Shown piece by piece: positions 8,451 to 55,914 of a stretch of 64,000 bases of DNA (the stretch's first letter is position 1; every line of letters starts with the position of its first letter). Source of the DNA: Clostridioides difficile (GTDB lineage: Bacteria > Bacillota > Clostridia > Peptostreptococcales > Peptostreptococcaceae); the NCBI RefSeq assembly GCF_001299635.1, contig NZ_JRHN01000038.1, positions 1-64,000 of the forward strand, given 5' to 3'. Made by a program: the position numbers and the translations under genes. The notes under the pieces were generated by a model. That model did no database searches. It worked only from the letters and a program-made list of their open reading frames with translations, and was not told the origin of the DNA.

Positions 8451-8576
8451 TTGTGTGCTTTTCGACTGTATTCAATAAAAATGGATTATGTTTAAAGAGA
8501 GCTCTTATTAAATAACGTAAATTAGTTTATGTTAAAAAAGAAATTTTGTAAGATACTAGAAGGGATGAAATATTAT

Positions 8577-9215
8577 ATGGACATACTTGATGATATAGCA
8601 GAATGCATATTAAATATGGGTGTAGACAATATAGAAAATTTAGTGAAAATTGCTATAGATAAAAATATTGATGTAGAAGATATTTATGAATATGGTTTAA
8701 ACAAAGGTATGATAGGAGCTTTAGATAAATTTGAGAACAAAGAATACTATCTTTCAGAAGTTATAGTATGTACAGATGCACTAAATAAAGGAATTAATCT
8801 TTTGAAAGGAACTGGAAAAGTAAAGGAGAAATCAAAGGGAGTAATTCTGATGTCTGTAGTAGAAGGAGATACCCATGAGATAGGAAAAAACATTGTAAAA
8901 GTAATGGTAGAAGCTACTGGATATAAAGTTATTGATTTAGGTGTAAATAGAAAAAGTAAAGATATAATAGAAGAGGCTATAAAAAACAATGTTGATATAA
9001 TAGGCTTATCTTCAATGATGACAACGACTATGGAGAACATGAAGTCAGTTATAAATGAACTTAATAGGATTAAGATAGATAAAAAACCAAAAGTAATAAT
9101 TGGTGGAGGTCCTGTAAGTATAGAGTTTGCAGAAGAAATAGGAGCAGATGGATATAGCTCAAATGCTCCAAAAGCAGTCAAATTAATAAACAAACTTATA
9201 GGAGGTGAAGTTTAA
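8577..9215 (+). CDS. Corrinoid (cobalamin-binding) methyl carrier protein
   Basis: About 212 residues from the ATG at 8577, chosen because GAAGGG lies upstream and the length matches MtaC/MtbC-type proteins. An upstream ATG at 8529 has no ribosome site. The N-terminal four-helix cap is followed by a B12-binding Rossmann domain with D-T-H-E-I-G (DxHxxG), whose histidine is the lower cobalt ligand, and later GLSSMM and GGGPVS. It carries a methyl group between two methyltransferases. It is first in a three-gene operon with the UroD-family enzyme. Confidence 0.9.
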   Translation: MDILDDIAECILNMGVDNIENLVKIAIDKNIDVEDIYEYGLNKGMIGALDKFENKEYYLSEVIVCTDALNKGINLLKGTGKVKEKSKGVILMSVVEGDTHEIGKNIVKVMVEATGYKVIDLGVNRKSKDIIEEAIKNNVDIIGLSSMMTTTMENMKSVINELNRIKIDKKPKVIIGGGPVSIEFAEEIGADGYSSNAPKAVKLINKLIGGEV

Positions 9216-9216
9216 G

Positions 9217-10239
9217 ATGTTTTCAGATATGACTTTACTTCAATATATAAACAGTGAGGATAGAGGCTTCTTTCTGCCTGATATGGGTACAAATGGATTA
9301 TTTTTAATAAATAAAAAGGCATATGAAGTATATGATAGTGTAGATACGCAGTTAGAATTAGCAAAGACTATGGACAAGTATTTTGAATCAGATTTTATAT
9401 ATTCATTCTGTGATGGGATTACGTTTTGTGAGACTTTAGGTCTAGAGACACTAAGACCGGATTATGATTTTCCAAGTGTATTAACACATACTATAACTGA
9501 TAGGGAAAAATTAAGAAAACTAGAAGTTCCAGACCCTTATACAAGTGGACGTATGCCACTTAATATAGAAAGTTTGTCACTTATATCAAAAAGTATAAAA
9601 AAACCATTGTATGAAGCTATACAAGGTCCATTTACACTTGCAGGCCAGCTAGCTGGAGCTACACAACTTTTGAGATGTATAATAACTGATAAAAAATTTG
9701 TAGAAGAGTTATTGGAATTTACAACTGAGTTGGTAAGAAGATATGCTGTGGCTGCAAATAAAGCAGGAGCTAAGTATATTTCAATAGCAGAACCAACATC
9801 AGTGACCTTAAGCAAAGATAGATTTGATGAGTATATAGTAAAAAATTTAAATAAAATATACGATGAGCTTGATTGTTGGAAAGGGATGCATATATGTGGA
9901 GATACTAGGGAATTATTAGACAATATGTTAAGTTGCAACATAGATGCAGTAAGCTTAGACCAAATTTTGGACTATGAAGAAATTGCTCCAATGATTCCTA
10001 GAGATATAGTATTGATTGGTAACTTGGACCCAATAAAGCTTCTGGGTCGCTCTAACCCAGATAAGATTAGGAGAGAGACACTAAAGTTGTTAAAGAAGAT
10101 GAGAGGATATGACAATTTCTTATGTAACTTTGGATGTAACTGTTTAAATACTACTCCAGTAGAAAACTTACAAGCAGCTATAAAGGCAGGAAGAATTAGT
10201 TATAAAGAATTAGATAGGATTGATATTAATGAATTATAA
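9217..10239 (+). CDS. Uroporphyrinogen-decarboxylase-family corrinoid methyltransferase (MtaA/CmuA-like)
   Basis: 340 residues. The ATG at 9217 follows GGAGGTG. The UroD barrel fold is visible through family motifs such as EAIQGPFTLAGQLAG and LIGNLDP. MHICGD (H-x-C) and a later cysteine in FGCNCLN fit the zinc-binding thiolate set of the methyltransferase branch, not true UroD. It should transfer a methyl group to or from the adjacent corrinoid protein. Whether it acts as the substrate demethylase or as the acceptor-side enzyme cannot be read here. Confidence 0.87.
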   Translation: MFSDMTLLQYINSEDRGFFLPDMGTNGLFLINKKAYEVYDSVDTQLELAKTMDKYFESDFIYSFCDGITFCETLGLETLRPDYDFPSVLTHTITDREKLRKLEVPDPYTSGRMPLNIESLSLISKSIKKPLYEAIQGPFTLAGQLAGATQLLRCIITDKKFVEELLEFTTELVRRYAVAANKAGAKYISIAEPTSVTLSKDRFDEYIVKNLNKIYDELDCWKGMHICGDTRELLDNMLSCNIDAVSLDQILDYEEIAPMIPRDIVLIGNLDPIKLLGRSNPDKIRRETLKLLKKMRGYDNFLCNFGCNCLNTTPVENLQAAIKAGRISYKELDRIDINEL

Positions 10240-10849
10240 TAGTAATAAAGATAAATCTTTTTTAGAATCTCTAAATCTAGAAGACATTTTTATAGATAAG
10301 AACATTGTGCTAAAGTTTTTGGGGTATGGAAATAGGAAGGCTCCAGATACGATTAGTGAAATCGTTGAAAAAGAAATAAAAAATATAAATGATAGCTTAG
10401 ATATTAAGATATATATGAGTGAGATTGATATTTATAGAATGCCTAAAAAGTGTAAAAAAGCATTTGCTATACTATACACAATAGGAGATAAGATTGATAT
10501 CAAGATGAACGACTATATGGAAAATTGTAATATGATGGCAGGGTTAGCACTGGATAAAATAGGAGTAGTGTGTTTAGATTGTATTAATGAAAAAATAAAG
10601 AGGTACTTAAAAGAAGAATATAATAATCTCAATATATCATACGAAATATATCCAGGAGATAAAGATTTTGAGATTGAGAAACAGAGAGAGATTTATAACT
10701 ATATAAAAAATAAATATAATAATGTAGAAATAGAAATCAATGATTATCACCAACTATCACCTATAAAGAGTGTGGCAATGCTTATTTTAATGGGAGATGA
10801 GGAAAATCTCGAATCAAGATGTAGTAAATGTCCTCAAAAATGCTTTTAG
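10229..10849 (+). CDS. Methionine-synthase activation-domain-like protein of corrinoid system
   Basis: 206 residues from the ATG at 10229, overlapping the methyltransferase gene by 11 bases. The opening LKFLGYGNR and overall layout resemble the vitamin B12-dependent methionine synthase activation domain proteins found in corrinoid methyltransferase clusters. It ends in a cysteine cluster, C-x2-C-x3-C (SRCSKCPQKCF). The likely role is reductive reactivation or handling of the oxidised corrinoid. Family assignment is by similarity of motifs and context; the cysteine tail may bind Fe-S. Confidence 0.72.
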   Translation: MNYNSNKDKSFLESLNLEDIFIDKNIVLKFLGYGNRKAPDTISEIVEKEIKNINDSLDIKIYMSEIDIYRMPKKCKKAFAILYTIGDKIDIKMNDYMENCNMMAGLALDKIGVVCLDCINEKIKRYLKEEYNNLNISYEIYPGDKDFEIEKQREIYNYIKNKYNNVEIEINDYHQLSPIKSVAMLILMGDEENLESRCSKCPQKCF

Positions 10850-12394: not shown

Positions 12395-12453
12395 ATATTT
12401 AAATAAAATTAAATTAAGTAAAAAATAATTAACCTATGATAGGAGGGAGTATT

Positions 12454-13701
12454 ATGCAAATAACAACTTTTGGAGCTATATTTGGCTTATTAGTAGCAAT
12501 TATTTTAATTATAAAAAAATTTCAAGCTGTTTATAGTTTAATGTTAGGAGCATTTATTGGAGGAATAGTTGGAGGAGCAAATATAACACAAACTGTAGAT
12601 TTTATGGCAACTGGGGCTATGAACATTTCACCATCAATTCTTAGAGCTTTAGCATCAGGAGTATTAGCAGGAAGTTTAATAAAAACAGGGGCAGTAGATA
12701 AAATATCAGAACAGATTGTAAAAATATTAGGAGAAAGGAGAGCTTTGCTTTCAATTGCCGCTTCAACTATGGTACTTGCTGGAGTAGGAGTAAATCTGGA
12801 TGTATCTATAATAACAGTGGCGCCTATAGGATTATACATAGGTAGAAAATTAAATTATTCCAAACTATCAATACTTTTAGCAATGTTAGGAGGAGGGAAA
12901 GCAGGTAATATCATATCGCCAAATCCGAATACTATAGCAGTGGCAGGTAACTTTTCTGTTAACCTATCTAGTGTTATGATTGCTAATATAATTCCAGCAA
13001 TTGTTGGAATTGTGATTACAATTATTTTAGCAAGTATGCTAACAAACAAAGGGAATAAAGTAGAATCATATGAAATCTTAGAACAAAGAGAAAATTTACC
13101 AAGCTTATTTAAATCATTATGTGGTCCAGTTGTAGCAATATTCTTATTGTTCCTGGGGAATATATCTCCAATAGTCATAGACCCTATGATAGCTCTTCCA
13201 ATAGGAGGAATAGTAACCTTAATTGCCACAGGAAATATGAACAATTCAAGAGAGTATTTAGCCTTTGGATTATCTAAAATGCAAGGTGTTTGTATATTAT
13301 TACTTGGAACAGGAACTATTGCAGGAATTATACAAGTTTCTGAATTGCAACAGAGCACAATAAGTATCCTGCAATTTTTAAATATGCCACAATTTTTATT
13401 AGCACCAATTTCAGGTATACTTATGTCATTAGCAACAGCTTCATCAACAGCTGGAGCTACTATAGCATCATCAACTTTTTCTGATGCTATAATAAATGGA
13501 GGTCTGTCACCAATTTCAGGAGCATCAATTGTAAATGCAGGCTCTAGTGTGTTTGAGCAATTACCACATGGCTCATTATTCCATACTAGTGCAGGCAGTA
13601 TAAATATGGATATAGGAGAAAGGTTTAAATTAATTCCATATGAAGCATTAATAGGAATAGTGATGACTATAGTTTCAACATCTATCCAATTAATTTTATA
13701 A
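12454..13701 (+). CDS. GntP-family permease
   Basis: 415 residues from the ATG at 12454, which follows AGGAGGG; an in-frame ATG at 12436 lies before that site. About 11-12 hydrophobic segments cover the length. Conserved GntP-type features include the glycine-rich motif LAMLGGGKAGNIISPNPN and the C-terminal SPISGASIVNAGSSVFEQLPHGS. Family members import gluconate, related sugar acids, glycerate or D-serine with protons. The position just before the sensor kinase, regulator and reductase genes suggests it may bring in the reductase substrate. Confidence 0.85.
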   Translation: MQITTFGAIFGLLVAIILIIKKFQAVYSLMLGAFIGGIVGGANITQTVDFMATGAMNISPSILRALASGVLAGSLIKTGAVDKISEQIVKILGERRALLSIAASTMVLAGVGVNLDVSIITVAPIGLYIGRKLNYSKLSILLAMLGGGKAGNIISPNPNTIAVAGNFSVNLSSVMIANIIPAIVGIVITIILASMLTNKGNKVESYEILEQRENLPSLFKSLCGPVVAIFLLFLGNISPIVIDPMIALPIGGIVTLIATGNMNNSREYLAFGLSKMQGVCILLLGTGTIAGIIQVSELQQSTISILQFLNMPQFLLAPISGILMSLATASSTAGATIASSTFSDAIINGGLSPISGASIVNAGSSVFEQLPHGSLFHTSAGSINMDIGERFKLIPYEALIGIVMTIVSTSIQLIL

Positions 13702-13783: not shown

Positions 13784-15778
13784 GTGAATAAAAAAAAGAT
13801 AGTTATTATGGGCATTATTTATTCTTTTTTAGTGGTATTTTCACTTACAAATATGTATGTAAATACGGAATATAATCTCAATATATTTGAATATATTAAA
13901 AAATCACTACCATTTACAAAAGAAGAAAAAGAATGGTTGGAGGAACATGATAATTTGGTGTATAGTTCTGACCAAAGTTCTCCTCCTTTGAGGTATGAAG
14001 GTAAAGAAGATGGGCAGTATAAAGGAATCATTGTCGACTTAATGAATTCTTTGTCAATTCAAATTGGTAAAGACTTTTATTTTAAACCAAATACTTGGTG
14101 GAAAGAATCTTTCATAAATTCGGTAGATAATAGTATAAAATTCTTCGATTTAATTCCATCAGAAGAAAGAGCAAACAAATTTATATTTACAGACCCAATA
14201 TATACTTTAAGTGCAAATATACTAAAAAATGAGAAATCTCAAGACATAAGTAGTTATATGGATTTAAAGGGAAAGACAATTGCGATACCAGAAGGTGACT
14301 ATTCTATAAACTTTTTAAAACAAAAAGTTAAAAACATAAATATAGTATTAACTCCAGATATAAAGACTGGGGTTAATCATCTAATATCAGGGAGAGTAGA
14401 TGCAGTTGTGGGTGATGAACCAGTATTACGATATTATATAAGTAATTATGGACTTTCAGATAAATATGATGTTTTAACTAATCCTATTTATACTAAAAAA
14501 GCTGTTCTTGCTGTACCTAAACAATATGAAGAATTGGTCAGTATTCTAAATAAAGGGATTTTCAAACTTCAAAAAAATGGAGTATATAAAGACTTAAAGA
14601 AAAAGTGGTATTTTGCATATAATGATGTTGATGATATATTGTATGAAAGAGGAATTGTGCCAAGTATTTATCTTTTTATAGGTATAATTTTAATATCAAT
14701 TTATATTTTTTATAGCTATACATATTTGTTAAAGATAGAAATAAAAAGAAAAACAAAAGAAGTACTAGAAAATAAAAAGACTTTAGAAGCTACATTTAAT
14801 AGTATTACAGATATAATAATGCTTATAGATGAAAATTACAAAATAGTAGAATCGAACAAAGTTCTATCTGATTTTGTGAATGAAATAAGTTACAAAAGAG
14901 AAGATTTAATTAACCTTATGAAGGGAATTATTGAAAAAACATTTTCTGAAAGCACCCATAAAACAAATGAAATTGAATTACATAATAAGATTTTAAAGAT
15001 AAGTACTTTTCCTGTAGAATATAAAAAAAATAATATTGAGTATATAGTGGTTCTAATTAAGGATATAACGAAGGATAAGATAGTAGAGGCAAAGTTACTT
15101 AGGGAGAACAAGATGATATCTATAGGTCAACTAGCTTCTGGTGTAGCACATGAGATAAGAAATCCTCTAGGGATAATAAGAAACAATTGTTATCTTTTAA
15201 AAGATGATGTTACAATGGAAGAAGTAAATGACTGTGTAAAATCTATAGAAAGTAATGTAGATAGAGCAAGCAACATAATAACAAACCTGTTAAATTTCGC
15301 AAGAATATCGGATGATAATTTAGAAAATATAAATATAAGAAATTTTATTGAAAACATAGTGAAGCTTCAATATAAAATCTTGCAGTTAAAGAATGTTGAA
15401 ATAAAAATAGAGTGTAATAAGAATTTAGTATGTTATATAAATGGAGAATCACTAAAACATGTATTTATAAATTTAATTTCTAATTCGGTAGATGCAATAC
15501 ATGAAGGTGGGCAAATTGTTATAGACTGTTATGTAGAAAACAATTATTTGTTTATAGATTTTAAAGATAATGGTGAAGGAATAAAAGAAAATGCTTTGAA
15601 GGATATATTTAATCCTTTCTATACTACAAAACCAATAGGTGAAGGGACTGGTTTAGGCTTATACATTACTTATAATGAAATTAAAAAGAATAATGGAGAT
15701 ATAAGTGTAAAAAGTAAATTAGGTATTGGAACTTGTTTTCATATAAAGATTCCACTAAATAAAGAGGTGACTATATAA
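13784..15778 (+). CDS. Sensor histidine kinase with solute-binding (SBP_bac_3) input domain
   Basis: 664 residues, GTG start. An N-terminal anchor (~5-25) is followed by an extracellular SBP_bac_3-type domain (~45-275), a transmembrane helix (~291-315), a PAS-like region (~330-430), a HisKA H-box with H456 (GVAHEIRNPLG), and a HATPase domain with N, DNGEGI and GTGLGL boxes. Such input domains bind amino-acid-like ligands. It overlaps the response-regulator ATG by one base (TAATG), so the pair is translationally coupled. It probably signals substrate presence to the sigma-54 regulator. Confidence 0.92.
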   Translation: MNKKKIVIMGIIYSFLVVFSLTNMYVNTEYNLNIFEYIKKSLPFTKEEKEWLEEHDNLVYSSDQSSPPLRYEGKEDGQYKGIIVDLMNSLSIQIGKDFYFKPNTWWKESFINSVDNSIKFFDLIPSEERANKFIFTDPIYTLSANILKNEKSQDISSYMDLKGKTIAIPEGDYSINFLKQKVKNINIVLTPDIKTGVNHLISGRVDAVVGDEPVLRYYISNYGLSDKYDVLTNPIYTKKAVLAVPKQYEELVSILNKGIFKLQKNGVYKDLKKKWYFAYNDVDDILYERGIVPSIYLFIGIILISIYIFYSYTYLLKIEIKRKTKEVLENKKTLEATFNSITDIIMLIDENYKIVESNKVLSDFVNEISYKREDLINLMKGIIEKTFSESTHKTNEIELHNKILKISTFPVEYKKNNIEYIVVLIKDITKDKIVEAKLLRENKMISIGQLASGVAHEIRNPLGIIRNNCYLLKDDVTMEEVNDCVKSIESNVDRASNIITNLLNFARISDDNLENINIRNFIENIVKLQYKILQLKNVEIKIECNKNLVCYINGESLKHVFINLISNSVDAIHEGGQIVIDCYVENNYLFIDFKDNGEGIKENALKDIFNPFYTTKPIGEGTGLGLYITYNEIKKNNGDISVKSKLGIGTCFHIKIPLNKEVTI

Positions 15779-17100
15779 TGAAAATACTAGTAGTTGATGA
15801 TGAGCTAGAGTATGGAACGGTAATGAAAAAAATTCTACAAAAGAATGGTTATATTGTAGATATAGCACTAAATGGGGAAGAAGCTATAAGTATCATTAAA
15901 AAAGATAAGAATTATGACTTGGTTTTATCTGATGTTATGATGAAAAATATGGATGGGGTACAGCTATTAGACAGAATTAAATCTATTAATAAGAGTATAG
16001 AAGTTATATTAGTTACAGGATATGGAAGTATTGAAAATGCAGTTGATGCTATGAAAAGAGGTGCGCTATCTTATTTTATAAAGAGCAATCCTATTGAAAA
16101 TTTATTAGAAGAAATTGAAAAGGTAAAAGCAGTGAAAGCATCAATTTCTACACAAAAGAATAATTTAGAGTTTACTTTAGAATCCAAAAATAGGAATTTC
16201 AATGATGTCATAAAAATTGCAGAAAAAGCTGCTTGTAAAGATGTTAATATATTAATTTTGGGAGAATCTGGTGTGGGGAAGGATATACTAGCCAGGTACA
16301 TACATAGTATAAGTCCAAGAAGGAACGAGATATTTGTACCTGTAAATTGTTGTGCTTTTTCAGAAAATTTATTGGAGTCTGAGTTGTTTGGTCATGAAAA
16401 AGGTTCTTTTACAGGAGCTGTGGATAGTAGAAAAGGTAGGTTTGAGCTTTCAAATAAAGGAACTTTATTTTTAGATGAAATAGGAGATATACCTTTAAAT
16501 GTTCAAGTAAAATTACTGAGAACACTTGAAGATAAATCTATAGAGAGAATAGGAAGTAATAAATCAATTAAAGTTGATTTTAGGTTAATTTGTGCAATGA
16601 ATAAGGAACCAAAAGTAGAAATATCAAACGGAAATATAAGAGAAGATTTTTTTTATAGAATAAGTACAATCACAATAACTATACCACCATTAAGAAGTAG
16701 AAGAGAAGATTTAAATACACTTATAGAATTTTTCTTAAATAAGTATCAAAATGAACATGATAAAAAGGTATATTCAATTGATAAGGAAGTAATGGATTTT
16801 TTATTAAATTACAATTATCCTGGAAATATAAGAGAATTAAAAAATATAATAAATAGGCTTGTAGTCTTAAGTGAAGAAGGTAATTTATCAAAAGATAATT
16901 TAAATTTAATATCAAATAATGTGTATATAGATGAAAAAATAAGTATTAGACCTCTAAGAGAAATAAGAAAAGAATTTGAATGTGAGTATATTGAAAAGGT
17001 TTTATCTTTATGTGGAAATAATGTGTCAAACACAGCTAAAAAATTAGAAATTAGTAGAAGGCAATTAACTAATAAAATATCAGAATATAATATTAAGTGA
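15778..17100 (+). CDS. Sigma-54-dependent response regulator (NtrC type)
   Basis: 440 residues. The receiver domain has D52 as phosphorylation site (LVLSDVMM). The AAA+ domain has Walker A GESGVGKD (162-169), the sigma-54 loop GSFTGA (209-214, a variant of GAFTGA), Walker B LFLDEIGD (230-237), and a C-terminal Fis-type HTH (~414-438). It activates sigma-54 RNA polymerase. The nearest -24/-12 promoter is that of the downstream reductase genes, with two matching palindromes just after its own stop codon. Confidence 0.93.
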   Translation: MKILVVDDELEYGTVMKKILQKNGYIVDIALNGEEAISIIKKDKNYDLVLSDVMMKNMDGVQLLDRIKSINKSIEVILVTGYGSIENAVDAMKRGALSYFIKSNPIENLLEEIEKVKAVKASISTQKNNLEFTLESKNRNFNDVIKIAEKAACKDVNILILGESGVGKDILARYIHSISPRRNEIFVPVNCCAFSENLLESELFGHEKGSFTGAVDSRKGRFELSNKGTLFLDEIGDIPLNVQVKLLRTLEDKSIERIGSNKSIKVDFRLICAMNKEPKVEISNGNIREDFFYRISTITITIPPLRSRREDLNTLIEFFLNKYQNEHDKKVYSIDKEVMDFLLNYNYPGNIRELKNIINRLVVLSEEGNLSKDNLNLISNNVYIDEKISIRPLREIRKEFECEYIEKVLSLCGNNVSNTAKKLEISRRQLTNKISEYNIK

Positions 17101-17138
17101 GAAAAAAACTTCTCATTAAATGAGAAAAAAACTTCTCA
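17098..17138 (+). promoter_or_regulatory. Twin 18-bp palindromes, candidate upstream activator sites
   Basis: TGAGAAAAAAACTTCTCA occurs identically at 17098-17115 and 17121-17138. Each copy has GAGAA/TTCTC arms, and the copies start 23 bp apart, about two helical turns. They lie roughly 160-200 bases upstream of the -24/-12 promoter, the normal place for enhancer sites of an NtrC-type activator. The first overlaps the stop codon of the regulator gene. Confidence 0.7.
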
Positions 17139-17149
17139 AACTCTATTAA

Positions 17150-17183
17150 AAGATAAGTAGAAAAAACATACTTATCTTTTTTT
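17150..17183 (+). terminator. Intrinsic terminator of the kinase-regulator operon
   Basis: AAGATAAGTA (17150-17159) pairs with TACTTATCTT (17169-17178), followed by a T run to 17183. It separates regulator transcription from the sigma-54 transcript. Confidence 0.85.
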
Positions 17184-17297
17184 ATTATAATTTTAAAATT
17201 TAAGATTTACAATAATTATTGTTAAATTCAATACTTATAAAACTTAGAAATGAAAATCTCTATAACATTAATAAATATAATACACATCTTAAATAAT

Positions 17298-17313
17298 TGG
17301 CATAGAAAATGCT
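17298..17313 (+). promoter_or_regulatory. Sigma-54 (-24/-12) promoter
   Basis: TGGCATAGAAAATGCT gives the GG at 17299-17300 and the GC at 17311-17312 with the obligatory spacing. It matches the consensus TGGCAYR-N4-YTGCW at all but one weak position. It lies about 70 bases before the component B alpha-subunit start. Confidence 0.85.
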
Positions 17314-17381
17314 TTATATATGAATAAACGTAATAATAAATACTTTTAATTGCGATTAAATATATTAAGGGGGATTTTCAT

Positions 17382-18668
17382 ATGAAGCTAGAGCTAGGGA
17401 ATATATTTATAAAAAATGTTGAATTTGGAGAAAAGACGGAAGTAAAAAATGGAGTATTATATGTGAATAGTAAAGAAATAGAAAAAATAGCCTTGGAAGA
17501 TGAAAGAATTGTAAATGTAAATGTTGAACTTGCAAGACCTGGTGAGTCAGTAAGAATAGCTCCAGTTAAAGATGTAATAGAACCTAGAGTTAAAATTGGA
17601 GATGACAGTAAAATATTTCCTGGAATTATAAACAAAGTAAAGACTGTAGGAAGTGGAAGAACACATGTACTTTTAGGAGCTTGTGTTGTAACTTGTGGAA
17701 ATATAGTTGGATTTCAAGAAGGTGTAATTGATATGAGTGGCCCTACTGCTAAATATACACCTTTTTCAAAAACAAATAATATATGTATTGTTATAAAAGC
17801 AAAAGATGGTATAGGTACTCATGACTATGAGGAAGCAGCTAGAATTGTTGGATTGAAAATAGGTGCATATATAGGTGAAGCAGGAAGAGAAGTTGAGCCA
17901 GATGAAATAATTGTATATGAGACAAAACCATTATTAAAACAAGTAAAAGAATATCCAGACCTACCAACAGTAGCATATGTTCATATGTTACAATCACAAG
18001 GACTTTTACATGATACTTATTATTATGGAGTAGATGCTAAACAAATAGTTCCTACTTTTATGTATCCAACTGAAATAATGGATGGAGCTATAATCTCTGG
18101 AAACTGTGTAGCACCATGTGATAAGGTCACTACATTCCATCATTTAAATAATCCAGTTATACATGACTTATATAAAAGACATGGAAAAGATTTAAACTTT
18201 GTAGGTGTTATTTTGACTAATGAAAACGTATTCTTGGTTGATAAAGAGAGAAGTTCTGATATGGTGGCAAAATTAATAGAGTTTTTGGGTGTTGATGGAG
18301 TACTAGTTACAGAAGAAGGTTATGGAAATCCAGATACTGACTTAATGATGAATTGTAAAAAGTGTAGTGAAGTTGGAGCAAGTGTAGTTTTGATAACAGA
18401 TGAATTTCCTGGGAAGGATGGAAAGAGTCAATCTATAGCAGATGCTACTAAAGAAGCAGATGCAGTTGTTTCTTGTGGTCAAGGGAACTTAGTGGTTCAT
18501 TTTCCAGCAATGGAGAAAATTATAGGAACTTTGGAATATGTTGAAATGATGATTGGTGGGTATAAAGGGTGTTTAAATGATGATGGAAGCATGGATGCAG
18601 AACTACAAATAATAATAGCTTCAACTATAGCAAATGGTTATAATCATCTGACAGCAAGATATTATTAA
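17382..18668 (+). CDS. Glycine/sarcosine/betaine reductase component B, alpha subunit (proprotein)
   Basis: 428 residues, the usual length of GrdE/GrdG/GrdI proteins. In this family the proprotein is cleaved at an Asn-Cys bond, and the new N-terminal cysteine becomes a pyruvoyl group that forms a Schiff base with the substrate amine. Here the site is N241-C242 in SGNCVAPCDKVTTFHH. It is followed at 88 bases by the selenoprotein subunit and is driven by the -24/-12 promoter. Sarcosine, betaine or another amine cannot be distinguished from sequence alone, so no symbol is given. Confidence 0.9.
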   Translation: MKLELGNIFIKNVEFGEKTEVKNGVLYVNSKEIEKIALEDERIVNVNVELARPGESVRIAPVKDVIEPRVKIGDDSKIFPGIINKVKTVGSGRTHVLLGACVVTCGNIVGFQEGVIDMSGPTAKYTPFSKTNNICIVIKAKDGIGTHDYEEAARIVGLKIGAYIGEAGREVEPDEIIVYETKPLLKQVKEYPDLPTVAYVHMLQSQGLLHDTYYYGVDAKQIVPTFMYPTEIMDGAIISGNCVAPCDKVTTFHHLNNPVIHDLYKRHGKDLNFVGVILTNENVFLVDKERSSDMVAKLIEFLGVDGVLVTEEGYGNPDTDLMMNCKKCSEVGASVVLITDEFPGKDGKSQSIADATKEADAVVSCGQGNLVVHFPAMEKIIGTLEYVEMMIGGYKGCLNDDGSMDAELQIIIASTIANGYNHLTARYY

Positions 18669-18756
18669 ATAAATGGTTGAATATAGAGTTTTGTTAGAGT
18701 AAGTAATCATTGTTCTAATTAATGTATAACTATAAAGTGTTTTGGAGGGTTAAGAT

Positions 18757-20064
18757 ATGAGTAAAATCAGAGTGGTTCATTATATAAATAATTTCTTTGC
18801 TGGTATAGGAGGAGAAGAAAAAGCAGACATTCCACCAGAGAAAAGAGAGGGAGCAGTAGGACCTGGAATGGCATTTCAAAGTCAATTTAATGATGATGCA
18901 GAAATAATTTCAACTGTAATTTGTGGAGATACGTATTTTGGAGAGAATATTGAAAGTACAACTCAAGAACTTTTAAAAATGATAAAAGACGAAAAACCTG
19001 ATTTATTTATTGCAGGGCCTGCGTTTAATGCAGGTAGATATGGAGTAGCTTGTGGAGCTATTTGTAAAGCAGTTGAAGATGAGCTAAATATTCCTGCAAT
19101 TACAGGAATGTATAAAGAAAATCCTGGAGTAGACATGTTTAAGTTAGATTTACACATAATATCTACTGGAAATTCAGCAGCTAGTCTTAGAAAAGTAGTT
19201 CCAATAATGACAAAGCTAGGTCTTAAACTGGTTAGAGGAGAAGAAATAGGTCCTCCTGAAGAAGAAGGATATATAATGAGAGGAATAAGAAAAAATTTCT
19301 TCCATGAATTTAGAGGTTCTGAAAGAGCAATTGATATGTTGGTTAAAAAGATGCAGGGAGAAAACTTTGAAACTGAGTATCCAATGCCTGAGTTTGATAG
19401 AGTCACACCTATGAAGCCTATTAAGGATTTATCTAAAATAAAACTTGCACTAGTAACTTCTGGAGGGATAGTTCCAATTGATAATCCAGATAAAATTGAG
19501 TCTTCAAGTGCTACTAAGTATGGAATTTATGATTTAACAGATATGGATTCTATGTCAAATAAAGATTTTACAACTATACATGGAGGTTATGATAGAGCAT
19601 ATGTACTTGAAAATCCAAATTTAGTTGTTCCACTAGATGTAGTTAGGGAACTTGAAAAAGAAGGTATAATTGGAGAATTGGCAAATTATTTTGTTACTAC
19701 TACAGGAACAGGAACAAGTGTTGGAAATTCCAAAAGGTTTGGGGAAGAGTTTTCAAAGAAACTTTTAGAAGATAATGTGGATGCTGTAATTTTAACATCT
19801 ACATGAGGTACTTGTACTCGTTGTGGAGCAACGATGGTAAAAGAGATAGAAAGAGCTGGTATAGCAGTTGTTCATATTTGTACTGTAGTACCAATATCAC
19901 TTACAATAGGAGCTAATAGGATTGTTCCAGCAGTGGGAATACCATACCCACTTGGAAATCCTAATCTAGGAGAAGAAGAAAGTAAAAAGATTAGAAAGAA
20001 GATAGTTTTAAAAGCTTTAAATGCCTTAAAAGAGGATATAGAAACTCAAACCGTATTTGAATAA
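18757..20064 (+). CDS. Glycine/sarcosine/betaine reductase component B, beta subunit, selenoprotein (UGA = Sec350)
   Basis: 435 residues when the in-frame TGA at 19804-19806 is read as selenocysteine. Without recoding the gene splits into 349- and 76-residue pieces. The redox motif is T-S-T-U-G-T-C-T-R-C-G-A, as in GrdB/GrdF/GrdH. The selenol attacks the substrate held by the pyruvoyl alpha subunit and passes the carboxymethyl group to selenoprotein A. A bSECIS-like hairpin follows the UGA. Components A and C and thioredoxin are not in this window and must be supplied from elsewhere. Confidence 0.93.
19807..19839 (+). other. bSECIS element for selenocysteine insertion
   Basis: TCGTTG (19818-19823) pairs with CAACGA (19829-19834) around a five-base TGGAG loop. 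TAC/GTA adds three outer pairs after a two-base bulge. The loop opens 17 bases after the UGA and exposes guanines, as bacterial SelB recognition requires. Confidence 0.75.
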
Positions 20065-26991: not shown

Positions 26992-28143
26992 ATGACAAAT
27001 TTGCCAAAACAATTTGATAGCTTTAATGAAGCTAGACAAAAAGGATTTATAAATGCAAAGGAACTTAAAGAAAGTGGGAAAAAGATGGTTGGAGTTTTCT
27101 GTACCTTCACTCCAGTTGAAATTCCAATGGCAGCTGGTGCAACTGTAGTAGGTGTATGTGGAGTTAGTGAAGAGCCAATACCAGATGCAGAAAGAGTACT
27201 TCCAAGAAATCTTTGTCCTTTAATAAAATCAAGTTATGGGCATGCAATAACAGATACCTGTCCATATTTCTATTTTTCTGATTTATTAATAGGAGAAACT
27301 ACTTGTGATGGTAAGAAAAAGATGTATGAAGAACTTGCAAAGGTTAAACCAACTTATGTAATGCATCTTCCAAATACATCAAAAGGTGAATTTGCCTATA
27401 AGCTTTGGAAGGATGAAATGATAAGATTAAAAGATGAGGTTGAGAAATCCTTAGGTGTGACTATAACAGAAGATGATATAAGAGCTGCTATAAAAGATAA
27501 AAATGAAGAAAGAGAACTTTTAAAAGAGTTTTATGCACTTGGTAAATTGCAACCATCTGCACTTACAGGGCTTGAGCTACATAATGTTTTATATCAAGCA
27601 GGCTTCAAATTTGACCGTACGGAACTTAAGCAATCTTTAAGAAAAGTCATAGATGATATGAAAGAAAGATATGAAAAAGGAGAATGTCCAGTTAAAAAAG
27701 ATAAGCCAAGAATATTAATAACAGGTTCTCCTATTGGTGGAATAAGCGAAAAAATAGTTAAGACTTTAGAAGATGCAGGAGCTTCAGTTGTGGCATATGA
27801 ACTTTGTGGAGCTATTAGATCAAATGATTTGTTAGTTGATGAAGAAATAGAAGATGTTTATGATGCTTTAACACAAAAGTATATAAACATAGGATGTTCT
27901 TGTATGATGAATAATGATAATCGTATTGAATTATTAGATAGAATAATAGATGAATATAATGTTGATGCTGTAATAGATGTAGTTTTACAAGCATGTCATA
28001 CATTTAATATAGAAAGTTATAGAATAAGAGAATTTGTTACAAAAGAAAAAAACAAGCCATTTATGTCTCTTGAGACTGATTATTCAAAATCAGATACTGA
28101 ACAATTGAGAACTAGATTTGAAGCGTTTGTAGAGATGTTGTAG
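26992..28143 (+). CDS. 2-hydroxyacyl-CoA dehydratase-family protein, YjiM type (possible double-cubane cluster protein)
   Basis: 383 residues, the size of E. coli YjiM and a member of the HgdB/FldC-like family. Cysteines recur in VFCTF, NLCPL, DTCPYF, TTCDGKKK, ELCGA, GCSCMM and QACHTF, suitable for Fe-S cluster ligands. Related proteins either dehydrate 2-hydroxyacyl-CoA or carry an [8Fe-9S] double-cubane cluster and reduce small molecules. Only one dehydratase-like subunit is present, which favours the YjiM or double-cubane branch. It is followed 24 bases later by its ATPase activator. Confidence 0.82.
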   Translation: MTNLPKQFDSFNEARQKGFINAKELKESGKKMVGVFCTFTPVEIPMAAGATVVGVCGVSEEPIPDAERVLPRNLCPLIKSSYGHAITDTCPYFYFSDLLIGETTCDGKKKMYEELAKVKPTYVMHLPNTSKGEFAYKLWKDEMIRLKDEVEKSLGVTITEDDIRAAIKDKNEERELLKEFYALGKLQPSALTGLELHNVLYQAGFKFDRTELKQSLRKVIDDMKERYEKGECPVKKDKPRILITGSPIGGISEKIVKTLEDAGASVVAYELCGAIRSNDLLVDEEIEDVYDALTQKYINIGCSCMMNNDNRIELLDRIIDEYNVDAVIDVVLQACHTFNIESYRIREFVTKEKNKPFMSLETDYSKSDTEQLRTRFEAFVEML

Positions 28144-28167
28144 GAATACATAAAAGTAGGAGGAATT

Positions 28168-28923
28168 ATGTTTAGTATAGGAGTGGACTCAGGGTCAGTG
28201 GCAACAAAAGGTGTATTATTCGATGGTGAAAAAATTATTAAGAAAATAATTATACCAACTGGATGGAGCCCTAAAAGTACATCTAAACAGGTCTATGAGT
28301 TGTTAAGTAGTGAAATTGATAAAAAAGATATAAAAAAAGTAGTAGGGACAGGTTATGGAAGAGGAGTAATGGATTTTGCTGATAAGAAAGTGACAGAAAT
28401 AACTTGTCATACTAGAGGAGTTTATTTTTTAAATAGGAATATAAGGACTATTTTAGATGTAGGTGGTCAAGACAGTAAAGTTATAAACTTAGATAGAGAT
28501 GGAAATGTATTTAATTTTATAATGAATGATAAGTGTGCTGCAGGAACTGGTAGATTCTTAGAAATTACTTCTAATCTTTTGGGAAGTGATATAGAAAGTA
28601 TTGATACATTAGCTCAAGGACATAATCCAGTTAATATATCTAGTATGTGTACAGTTTTTGCTGAATCTGAAATTGTAAGTCTTTTAGCTCAAAATATTTC
28701 TACTGGAGAGGTAGCAGCAGGGATACTTAAATCTATTGCAAATAAATCTACTTCAATGCTGGCAAGAGGTGAGATAATAGATGAAGTTGCATTTACTGGA
28801 GGACTTGCAAAGAGTAAAGAATTAGTAAAAATGATAGAAGAAATACTGGACAGAAAAATTTTTATTGCAGAAGATACTCAAATAATGGGAGCCTTAGGGG
28901 CTGCTGTAATAGGGTTTAGATAA
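28168..28923 (+). CDS. Acyl-CoA dehydratase activase, YjiL type (ASKHA ATPase)
   Basis: 251 residues with ASKHA ATPase motifs GVDSGSVATKG near the N-terminus and DVGGQDSK. The two cluster-binding cysteines are in KCAAGTGRFLE and SMCTVFAESE, which in this family hold one [4Fe-4S] at the dimer interface. It injects a low-potential electron into the partner protein at the cost of ATP. It directly follows the YjiM-type gene, so the pair forms one functional unit. Confidence 0.92.
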   Translation: MFSIGVDSGSVATKGVLFDGEKIIKKIIIPTGWSPKSTSKQVYELLSSEIDKKDIKKVVGTGYGRGVMDFADKKVTEITCHTRGVYFLNRNIRTILDVGGQDSKVINLDRDGNVFNFIMNDKCAAGTGRFLEITSNLLGSDIESIDTLAQGHNPVNISSMCTVFAESEIVSLLAQNISTGEVAAGILKSIANKSTSMLARGEIIDEVAFTGGLAKSKELVKMIEEILDRKIFIAEDTQIMGALGAAVIGFR

Positions 28924-29115: not shown

Positions 29116-31503
29116 GTGAAGAAATTTGCTTCAAAACAAGCAGCAAGATTTGTTGCACTATTTTTAATATCTATTTTAGTAATGTCAACAATTCCTGTAT
29201 CAGCTGACAGTAGTAGTACATTGAATCAGATAAAAAAAGCAGAATACAGTGAAACTTATAAACAATATCTAAAAGATGCTAAAAATGGACGTACAGAAAA
29301 ATATAATGGTATTATACCAAATCCATATCAACTGGAAGGTACTCAAATTCAGAGTAAAGGAAGAACCGCACCAGCATCTTATGACCCTAGAAAATTAGGT
29401 CTTATGACATCAGTAAAAAATCAAGAAAATCTAGGAATATGCTGGGATTTCGCTGCAATGGCAACTTTAGAGAGTTTCTTGAAATTAAATAACTATGGAG
29501 ATTATGATTTATCAGAAGAACATCTAAGATGGTGGGCTTCAGAGGGTGAATATGGATGGACTGTAAATGACATGGATGGTGCTTTAAATTATGAAGCTAT
29601 GGGCTATTTAACATCTTGGTCAGGTCCTAAATTGGAAAAAGACATTCCATACAATGGTAAAGTATCTAAAGCACAAGGAGCTACAAAGCCAACTAATATG
29701 AATACAGCTCCAACTGTTTTTAATGTAACAGATGCTGTATGTGTAAGTAATGATATAAATTCTACAAAAAATGCTATATTGCAGTATGGAGCAGTAACAT
29801 CTGGTTATTATGAAGATATTAAATATCAAAGTGAAAATCAAAATGCATACTATTGCCCAACAAAAAGTTTTAATACTAATCATGCTATTTCAATTGTGGG
29901 CTGGGATGATAACTATTCTAAAGACAATTTTAATGCAAACATTAAACCATCAAAAAATGGTGCTTGGCTAATAAAAAATAGCTGGGGAGATTATAATTCT
30001 GAGAATGGATATTTCTGGATATCTTATGAAGATAAAACACTTATGTCTGATATAGATAACTTTTCAATCAAAGGTGGTCAAAAGCCAAATGATGACGAAA
30101 AAATGTATCAACATGACTATGCAAGTATTGTTCCTTTAATTTCAAACAAAATAACAGCTGCAAATGTATTTAATTTTAATAGAGGTGATGAGACTCTAAA
30201 ATCTGTAATGTTCTTAACTGAGAGTATAGGGGCTAAATATGAAGTATATTATGCTCCAGTAGTAAATGGTATACCTCAAGAGAATAATATGAAAAAGTTA
30301 AAAGAAGGTACTGCACAATATTCAGGATACATAACAGTTCCAATTGATTCTTTTGATATACCAGCAGGAAAAGGAGCAATTGTAGTCAGTATAGAGGCAA
30401 AAAATGGAGAATCAACTATAGGCTCTGAATCAAATGTACCAGGATACGATACATTTAAAGCAAAAGCTAATTTAGGTGAAAGTTACGTTATAGATAGTAC
30501 TGGAAAATTCTTCGATATAAATAGAGATAGCAACTTCTATCCATGTAATTTCACTATAAAAGCTGTTACAGAAAAGTCTTCTGGAGAGAGTATACCAAAT
30601 GAGTCTTTAATTGGTAGTGATAGATATGAAACTGCTATCAAAGTTAGTCAAAATGGTTTTAATTCTTCAGAAAATGTAGTTTTAGTAAATGGAGGTTCAA
30701 TAGTGGACGCATTAGCAGCAACTCCTTTTACATCTGCTATCAATTCGCCAATACTATTAACACAAAAAGAAACTTTGAATTCAAAGACTAAGGCTGAGAT
30801 ACAAAGATTAGGTGTTAAGAAAGTATACTTAATAGGTGGAGAGAATTCTATAAGTAAAGAAATTGAACAACAATTAAAAAACTTAAACATATCAATAGAG
30901 AGAATATCAGGAAGTGATAGATATAAGACAAGTTTACTATTAGCTCAAAAACTAAATAGTATAAAAAGTGTTTCTCAAATAGCAGTTGTTAATGGAGTAA
31001 AGGGATTAGCTGATGCCATTAGTGTAGGAGCAGCCGCAGCAGAAAATAATATACCAATTATACTTGCAAATGAAAAAAGCGAATTGCAAGGAGCTGATGA
31101 TTTTTTAAATTCATTAAATATAGATAAATCTTATATTATTGGAGGAACAGTATCTTTATCAAGTAATTTAGAGAGTAAATTGAAAAATCCAATTAGATTA
31201 TCTGGTAGTAGTAGAGATGAAACTAATTCCAAGATAATAGATAATTTTTATAAAAAAGATACTTTAAAAAATGCATTTGTAGTTAAAAATGGAATTAAGA
31301 GTCAAAATGATTTGATAGATGGCTTGGCAGTTGGTCCTCTAGGGTCTAAAACTGGTTCACCAGTAATTTTAGTTGGAGACAAACTAGCTGATAGCCAAAA
31401 AGAAGTTCTTAAAAACAAGACTTTAGAAAAAGTAACTCAAGTTGGTGGTGGAGCAAATCAAAATGCATTTAAAGAGTTAGTAAAATTAAAGAGTGCTAAA
31501 TAA
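29116..31503 (+). CDS. cwp13: Cell-wall cysteine protease with CWB2 repeats (Cwp13-like)
   Basis: 795 residues, GTG start. The signal peptide is ~1-30 (cleavage near VSA-DS). A papain-family C1A domain has catalytic Cys109 (GICWDFA), His256 (TNHAISIVGWDD) and Asn288 (IKNSWGDY). A lectin-like linker domain covers ~325-490. Three CWB2 repeats follow from ~497, opening with SLIGSDRYET, RISGSDRYKT and RLSGSSRDET, which anchor S-layer proteins to wall polymer. Length and order match C. difficile Cwp84 and Cwp13; the genomic context outside the slpA locus favours Cwp13. Confidence 0.9.
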   Translation: MKKFASKQAARFVALFLISILVMSTIPVSADSSSTLNQIKKAEYSETYKQYLKDAKNGRTEKYNGIIPNPYQLEGTQIQSKGRTAPASYDPRKLGLMTSVKNQENLGICWDFAAMATLESFLKLNNYGDYDLSEEHLRWWASEGEYGWTVNDMDGALNYEAMGYLTSWSGPKLEKDIPYNGKVSKAQGATKPTNMNTAPTVFNVTDAVCVSNDINSTKNAILQYGAVTSGYYEDIKYQSENQNAYYCPTKSFNTNHAISIVGWDDNYSKDNFNANIKPSKNGAWLIKNSWGDYNSENGYFWISYEDKTLMSDIDNFSIKGGQKPNDDEKMYQHDYASIVPLISNKITAANVFNFNRGDETLKSVMFLTESIGAKYEVYYAPVVNGIPQENNMKKLKEGTAQYSGYITVPIDSFDIPAGKGAIVVSIEAKNGESTIGSESNVPGYDTFKAKANLGESYVIDSTGKFFDINRDSNFYPCNFTIKAVTEKSSGESIPNESLIGSDRYETAIKVSQNGFNSSENVVLVNGGSIVDALAATPFTSAINSPILLTQKETLNSKTKAEIQRLGVKKVYLIGGENSISKEIEQQLKNLNISIERISGSDRYKTSLLLAQKLNSIKSVSQIAVVNGVKGLADAISVGAAAAENNIPIILANEKSELQGADDFLNSLNIDKSYIIGGTVSLSSNLESKLKNPIRLSGSSRDETNSKIIDNFYKKDTLKNAFVVKNGIKSQNDLIDGLAVGPLGSKTGSPVILVGDKLADSQKEVLKNKTLEKVTQVGGGANQNAFKELVKLKSAK

Positions 31504-41731: not shown

Positions 41732-41737
41732 TTAATT

Positions 41738-41850
41738 TATAAAGATAAAAACACAGTCTGGTTGGTAGTCCAGACGCAGCAATTGCTGTCAGTAACCTGC
41801 CTCCTTGGTTGTCCGTTCTTTAGAAAGTAACTAAATAGGAGGAACTAGCA
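41738..41850 (+). promoter_or_regulatory. yjdF-motif RNA (azaaromatic riboswitch candidate)
   Basis: Leader of the yjdF-like gene. GTCTGG (41756-41761) pairs with CCAGAC (41770-41775), CAGC (41777-41780) pairs with GCTG (41785-41788), and a G/C-rich conserved-looking stretch runs to about 41818, in an otherwise AT-rich region. AGGAGG and the start codon follow. Position and structure fit the yjdF RNA motif, known to bind azaaromatic compounds and control translation of yjdF. Confidence 0.75.
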
Positions 41851-55596: not shown

Positions 55597-55629
55597 CAAT
55601 ATCATAATAACAATTCAAAACAACATTAA

Positions 55630-55914
55630 ATGCTAAGAAAAGAAATAGTAGAAGTAGTTAATCTTAAACAGAGAGTTTCCGATTGGTGAGAGGAGCAATA
55701 GATTTTACTTTGAACACATCTTTGAGCAGAACTCTGAAAGAGTAAAGATACTTCATTAGGAGCTTTCCGGAATCCTTGCACCCGTTATAGTGCTAGAGTA
55801 TAATTATTTTATTGTACTTAAAGAGGTTAGTGTCGTGAGGCATTAATGAACAGAGGTGGAACCACGAGAGTCAACTCCCGTCCTCTAGCAGAAGCTAGAG
55901 ACGGGAGTTTTTTT
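55630..55914 (+). promoter_or_regulatory. T-box riboswitch (specifier CAC, histidine)
   Basis: Stem I contains AGAGAG, GATTGGTGAGA and the specifier region GAA-CAC-ATCTTTGAGC, putting codon CAC at 55715-55717. The conserved T-box AGAGGTGGAACCACG lies at 55852-55866. The terminator pairs AACTCCCGTC with GACGGGAGTT and ends in seven T. Uncharged tRNA should stabilise the antiterminator and turn on the downstream transporter. The tRNA-facing bulge reads TGGA, so its last base would pair with a U discriminator. Confidence 0.9.

Follow-up and report, generated by a model that had tools for sequence, protein, structure and literature searches.

A predicted selenocysteine-containing GrdF with an in-frame UGA codon and SECIS hairpin in a Clostridioides sarcosine reductase locus

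In the Grd reductase systems, component B binds the substrate, GrdA carries the carboxymethyl group as a selenoether, and component C releases acetyl phosphate. This chemistry is described in part in the available text of PMC13188914 and PMC9908766, the former of which also names the UxxCxxC motif for GrdB. The accessible portion of PMC4118067 gives GrdB, GrdF, GrdH, and PrdB as selenocysteine-containing proteins in Clostridium litorale, and that of PMC4056300 credits E. acidaminophilum with two clusters for sarcosine reductase. For Clostridioides, PMC7438776, as far as its available text goes, presents a promoter for the sarcosine reductase genes CD1740-CD1741 together with the regulator CD1739/SarR, in a system termed SarRS, and the available text of PMC6615313 gives grdGF as the target of SarR; the name sarR used here comes from these two papers. 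The part of PMC10484987 that is accessible, on selenium metabolism in C. difficile, gives the established selenoproteins as SelD, Prd, and Grd. Here we consider a stretch of 64,000 nucleotides from a Clostridioides genome (the window), in which a gene that very probably encodes GrdF is split by an in-frame UGA and lies in a comparable setting of partner and regulatory genes (Table 1).

Table 1. Coordinates of the features at the grdGF locus of the window
Feature	Coordinates	Strand	Remarks
GntP-type permease	12436..13701	+	directly before sarS; Pfam GntP_permease 60.4 bits, under the NCBIfam gluconate cut-off
sarS, sensor histidine kinase	13784..15778	+	Pfam: SBP_bac_3 sensor domain
sarR, response regulator	15778..17100	+	Pfam: sigma-54 activator domain, Fis-type HTH
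two inverted repeats TGAGAA...TTCTCA, candidate SarR sites	17098..17138 (17098-17115, 17121-17138)	+	
-24/-12 sigma-54 promoter upstream of grdG	17297..17313	+	pattern match
grdG, component B alpha proprotein	17382..18668	+	NF040793 869.5 bits, cut-off 780; Cys242 expected pyruvoyl site
grdF, sarcosine reductase component B beta subunit (very probable)	18757..20064	+	435 residues, Sec at 350, TAA stop
UGA codon 350, predicted to be decoded as selenocysteine	19804..19806	+	TGA in 77/77 site-reaching loci
bacterial SECIS, Rfam SECIS_4 (RF01990)	19807..19844	+	stem-loop core 19819-19833

On translation, grdF forms a single frame of 435 codons that ends in TAA and has its sole TGA at codon 350, with GGAGGG 7 bases upstream of its ATG. 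A standard ORF list presents it instead as two pieces, 18757-19806 (349 aa) and 19834-20064 (76 aa). This is the only frame of its kind in the window when both strands are searched for a TGA-cut frame (at least 200 codons between stops, followed by at least 60 open codons). A preliminary description of this DNA had taken the two same-frame ORFs, parted by one TGA within the motif T-S-T-U-G-T-C-T-R-C-G-A and followed 12 bases later by a hairpin, for a single selenoprotein of 435 residues and about 47 kDa, of the type of GrdB, GrdF, and GrdH and with selenocysteine at residue 350. All of this is borne out: the translation and the ORF list place the TGA at codon 350 of 435, the motif is present in the joined frame, the hairpin CGTTG-TGGAG-CAACG begins at 19819, and the computed mass is 47.7 kDa (with Cys replacing Sec). 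Within that motif, U350-G-T-C-T-R-C constitutes a UxxCxxC motif with Sec from the in-frame UGA.

Family models, gene neighbors, and a tree sharpen this assignment, and we regard the protein as very probably GrdF, the selenocysteine-containing beta subunit of sarcosine reductase component B. It scores 852.8 bits on the GrdF model NF040794 (cut-off 800) over positions 1-435 of 435. It also passes TIGR01917, the model for GrdB of glycine reductase (664.7 against a cut-off of 602.2), though NF040794 gives the higher score, and it is 61% identical to the GrdB of its own genome (L002, L072), which lies within a grd operon, has the same Sec position, and bears a SECIS_4 match of 66.2 bits. These likenesses, and the fact that sequence alone cannot give the substrate, leave a little room for a selenoprotein that is not sarcosine specific, be it another GrdB for glycine reductase or a GrdH for betaine reductase. 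We nevertheless consider this very improbable, since the narrower GrdF model is passed while the GrdH model NF040795 is failed (582.1 against 775), the genome's own GrdB, at 710.2, falls short of the GrdF cut-off of 800, the partner gene is grdG, the window showed no grdA, grdC, or grdD, and the protein falls in a clade with GrdF of Peptoclostridium acidaminophilum. That tree of 65 proteins parts 35 GrdF-type from 29 GrdB-type rows by one branch with support of 100/97, the window protein lying on the GrdF side; the labels are our own, set by whether the neighboring alpha subunit is nearer GrdG or GrdE, with one locus lacking an alpha subunit (L084) labeled via its grdA and grdC and the GrdH row (L106) left ungrouped. 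As the window protein served as bait in finding 32 of the 35 GrdF-type rows, the sample is tilted toward that type. Both the GrdB and the GrdH assignments were rejected on model scores and tree.

A search with the GrdF model across 398 genomes of the same phylum found matches in 111, with only two over the GrdF cut-off, so that most of these matches are other GrdB-family proteins; the Peptoclostridium litorale reference itself falls narrowly under the cut-off (792.8 against 800). A single GrdF sequence searched against the PDB gave no match at E 0.001. The Pfam family PF07355, which has 347 positions, ends at residue 349, just short of the Sec codon at 19804, much as a model made from UGA-truncated proteins would. 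Separately, a short GrdB-like relative (L003, G000:C5:32380-32931) is present in all eight genomes of the genus and matches the N-terminal part of the query alone; judged by this extent, it could belong to the NCBIfam family "GrdB-related, no Se."

The UGA itself is conserved wherever the gene reaches it. Among 79 loci examined, two (L036 and L037) end before residue 350, and the remaining 77 all have TGA there, so that no homologue without Sec or Cys at this residue was encountered. The site scan behind this count found 78 sites, one of which (L072) duplicates the grdB of L002 and was left out; the 77 include near-copies and amount to 73 distinct sequences. The scan left residue 350 free and fixed some of its neighbors, and a homologue with other neighbors would escape it; a further scan that required U at the site was not used as evidence on the residue. 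Within the genus, the gene is present in all eight genomes with TGA at the same codon. A single in-frame TGA is likewise seen in 149 of the 150 GrdF-model matches among those listed (one of them also has a TAA), the exception being a fragment that stops at residue 291; the position of the TGA was checked in the 29 listed matches made into new loci and in the window's own two genes. The codons 3' of the TGA evolve as coding sequence, as do those 5' of it: against seven same-genus orthologues, which are not mutually independent, dN/dS, derived from the dN and dS values, is ~0.08-0.15 before the UGA and ~0.04-0.12 in codons 364-433.

The hairpin after the TGA, which had been suggested to be a bacterial SECIS (bSECIS), was recovered as such by a covariance search, in which RF01990 (SECIS_4) matches over all 38 of its positions directly after the TGA with 60.6 bits (gathering threshold 38; E 6.5e-12 over the window). 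In the Rfam drawing, the hairpin has six pairs and a GGA loop, which is closed by a U-G pair. The codons that make up the stem are nearly frozen at synonymous positions: a single codon is kept at Arg355, Ala358, and Thr359 in 97, 100, and 92%, respectively, of the 73 distinct sequences, whereas none of 127 other near-invariant columns outside codons 351-363 exceeds 82%. The third base of the loop is the wobble position of a Gly codon and varies among relatives; a reading of TGGAG as a special loop was rejected, these letters belonging to the TGT (Cys) and GGA (Gly) codons. The folding energy of the hairpin is unremarkable (z of -1.39, with 16 of 200 shuffles folding as well). In the alignment, 97.7% of the SECIS cells are paired, and in two of 55 sequences a single pair shows a change at both of its positions, a count of covariation equalled by 43 of 500 shuffles; the outer stem pair is broken in five of the 55 sequences, as is one pair of the lower helix. 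The covarying pair goes from U-A to C-G in L095 and L099 only, both GrdB-type and of one family. In these two loci (positions 2545-2582 in L095), the change comes alongside Thr to Ala at the residue-359 codon, which points to preservation of the RNA pairing at the expense of the protein sequence.

Because the tests of selection, conservation, and RNA constraint all agree, we conclude that the UGA is read through. We consider it highly improbable that the GGAG in the loop of the Clostridioides SECIS additionally gives rise to some translation initiation at the internal ATG at 19834. To a genuine stop at the UGA, with a protein cut short at 349 residues and an independent gene of 76 residues from that ATG, or else a broken gene, we give practically no credence: a plain ORF list does show two ORFs, and a GGAG does stand 5 bases upstream of the second ATG, but TGA occupies the same codon across the genus and in every site-reaching homologue, purifying selection persists beyond it, and both a SECIS_4 match and the Sec machinery are at hand. 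More specifically, a broken gene or a sequencing error was rejected on the recurrence of the same TGA in 8/8 genus genomes and 77/77 loci, and a separate 76-residue gene was rejected on the continuity of purifying selection and on the start of that piece after the UxxCxxC motif.

The genome as a whole can, to judge from its gene content, make selenoproteins. It holds a tRNA-Sec (69.4 bits, gathering threshold 47, with ARAGORN in agreement) and selA, selB, and selD (636.1, 357.1, and 402.2 bits, respectively), the last of which carries an in-frame UGA of its own near its start. Another contig (L072) bears a glycine reductase operon in which grdA, grdB, grdC, and grdD are over their NCBIfam cut-offs, the models for the shared components GrdA, GrdC, and GrdD being NF040748, NF040746, and NF040747; trxB, trxA, and grdE were named there from sequence and position only, and a glycine riboswitch lies near the operon on the same strand. 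Two further frames on this contig, both near the grd operon and on the minus strand, each contain one in-frame UGA and match curated NCBIfam families: 16758-17399 is SaoL, a MerB-like organometallic lyase (221.5 bits against a cut-off of 140), and 18164-18970 is SaoP, an ABC transporter permease (431.8 against 295).

From these parts, a course of events may be proposed for GrdF. SarS-SarR would turn on the transcription of grdGF with sigma-54, and SelB with Sec-tRNA would decode UGA 350 as selenocysteine under the guidance of the SECIS hairpin within the coding sequence 3' of it. The GrdG proprotein is expected to be cleaved before Cys242 to yield a pyruvoyl subunit that would work with GrdF; this residue has the same number as the pyruvoyl site mapped in C. 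difficile GrdE in the available text of PMC9908766. Component B would then take sarcosine and pass its carboxymethyl group to the selenium of GrdA, and component C (GrdC and GrdD) would make acetyl phosphate, and from it ATP, in Stickland reduction, with GrdA, GrdC, and GrdD probably supplied by the glycine reductase operon on the other contig. Of these elements, the reading frame, SECIS, Sec machinery, protein family, partner gene, shared components, and promoter are seen in the sequence itself, and the chemistry is that established for the family; that sarcosine is both substrate and inducer in the window strain we infer.

The region upstream of grdG is in keeping with such control. The promoter pattern TTGGCATAGAAAATGCT has one match in the window, where 0.02 would be expected, the pattern having been chosen after both the site and the published consensus had been seen. 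The 19 promoter letters given for CD1740 in Table 4 of PMC7438776, within its available text, are identical to window positions 17297-17315. A sigma-54 pattern with a fixed TGGCAC has no site before grdG; it is the clostridial form that matches. A strict sigma-54 pattern occurs within 400 bases before grdG in six of 21 loci examined, these being the window, three Clostridioides loci, L012, and P. acidaminophilum. The inverted repeats further upstream are candidate sites for the SarR activator, and among the three other Clostridioides loci both are found in L005 and L007 and one in L006. SarR is 55.6% identical to the regulator that precedes grdG in P. acidaminophilum, and SarS is 41.9% identical to the corresponding kinase. 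The GntP-type permease also stands before sarS in L005, L006, and L007, and on gene position alone it could be a sarcosine importer.

How such a protein would appear in selenoproteome data deserves consideration. In TY medium, according to the available text of PMC5677094, three 75Se bands are seen, likely GrdB, PrdB, and GrdA; GrdA and GrdB are absent when grdA carries a mutation that is polar on grdB, and no band of these gels is assigned to GrdF in that text. The absence of an assigned band would fit a gene that is silent without inducer. Since GrdF is of the size of GrdB, a 75Se band at 47 kDa could be mistaken for GrdB unless grdB is absent. We put forward tentatively, as a proposal that we find plausible though rather short of probable, that GrdF has been overlooked in the Clostridioides selenoproteome, being made only when gut sarcosine triggers SarS-SarR and having been missed by 75Se labeling while uninduced and while running together with GrdB at ~47 kDa. 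A sarcosine-inducible GrdF of this size is worth bearing in mind when selenium gels are read.

The preliminary description had further held that standard gene callers truncate grdF, and here it was only half right. A plain ORF list does split the gene, and PF07355 does stop before the Sec residue, but NF040794 and NF040795 are full-length models, and two annotated RefSeq relatives, grdF of P. acidaminophilum and grdH of Enterococcus gilvus, are each a single CDS running through the UGA. Thus, the gene is hidden in neither of the two annotated relatives examined; a third matched record, from Acetoanaerobium noterae, lacks a gene table for the matched stretch and is uninformative. Literature searches on PGAP and selenoproteins, and on sarcosine or creatine in difficile Stickland metabolism, found no paper. 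The reading of grdF as a gene split by UGA is correct, already known, and ordinary for such bacteria, and its practical consequence is small, the enzyme, its selenocysteine, the SECIS class, and the regulator being already in print or in curated libraries.

Elsewhere in the window, the plus strand carries several other features. A possible small methyl-transfer operon at 8529-10849 comprises a corrinoid-binding protein, a methyltransferase of URO-D/MtaA-like type that scores under the NCBIfam cut-offs, and a third protein without a family match. At 26992-28923, a 2-hydroxyacyl-CoA dehydratase-type subunit (HGD-D) is followed by a BadF/BcrA-type ATPase that is probably its activator, and 29116-31503 encodes a cysteine protease of the papain family that also has lectin-like and cell wall binding (CWB2) domains. 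Two RNA elements were also found, an azaaromatic (yjdF) riboswitch at 41735-41832 (93.4 bits) and a T-box leader at 55626-55888 (108.1 bits).

Among the described systems, the locus finds close counterparts both within and beyond its genus. In C. difficile 630, CD1739-CD1741 (SarR, grdG, and grdF) have the same promoter letters and the same type of regulator, going by the available text of PMC7438776 and PMC6615313; the window belongs to another Clostridioides lineage than strain 630, with which it was compared via these published descriptions, and its nearest named matches in the genome collection are three C. difficile strains, whose grdF is 94-97% identical. The counterpart outside the genus is that of P. 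acidaminophilum DSM 3953 (Peptoclostridium/Eubacterium), on the megaplasmid NZ_CP007453, whose GrdF and GrdG are 72% and 77% identical, respectively, to those of the window. The two share the position of Sec and the order of kinase, sigma-54 regulator, grdG, and grdF. However, they differ at both ends of this array: in P. acidaminophilum a BCCT transporter comes after grdF and grdA is nearby, neither of which directly follows grdF in the window, whereas the window, unlike P. acidaminophilum, has a GntP-type permease ahead of the kinase.
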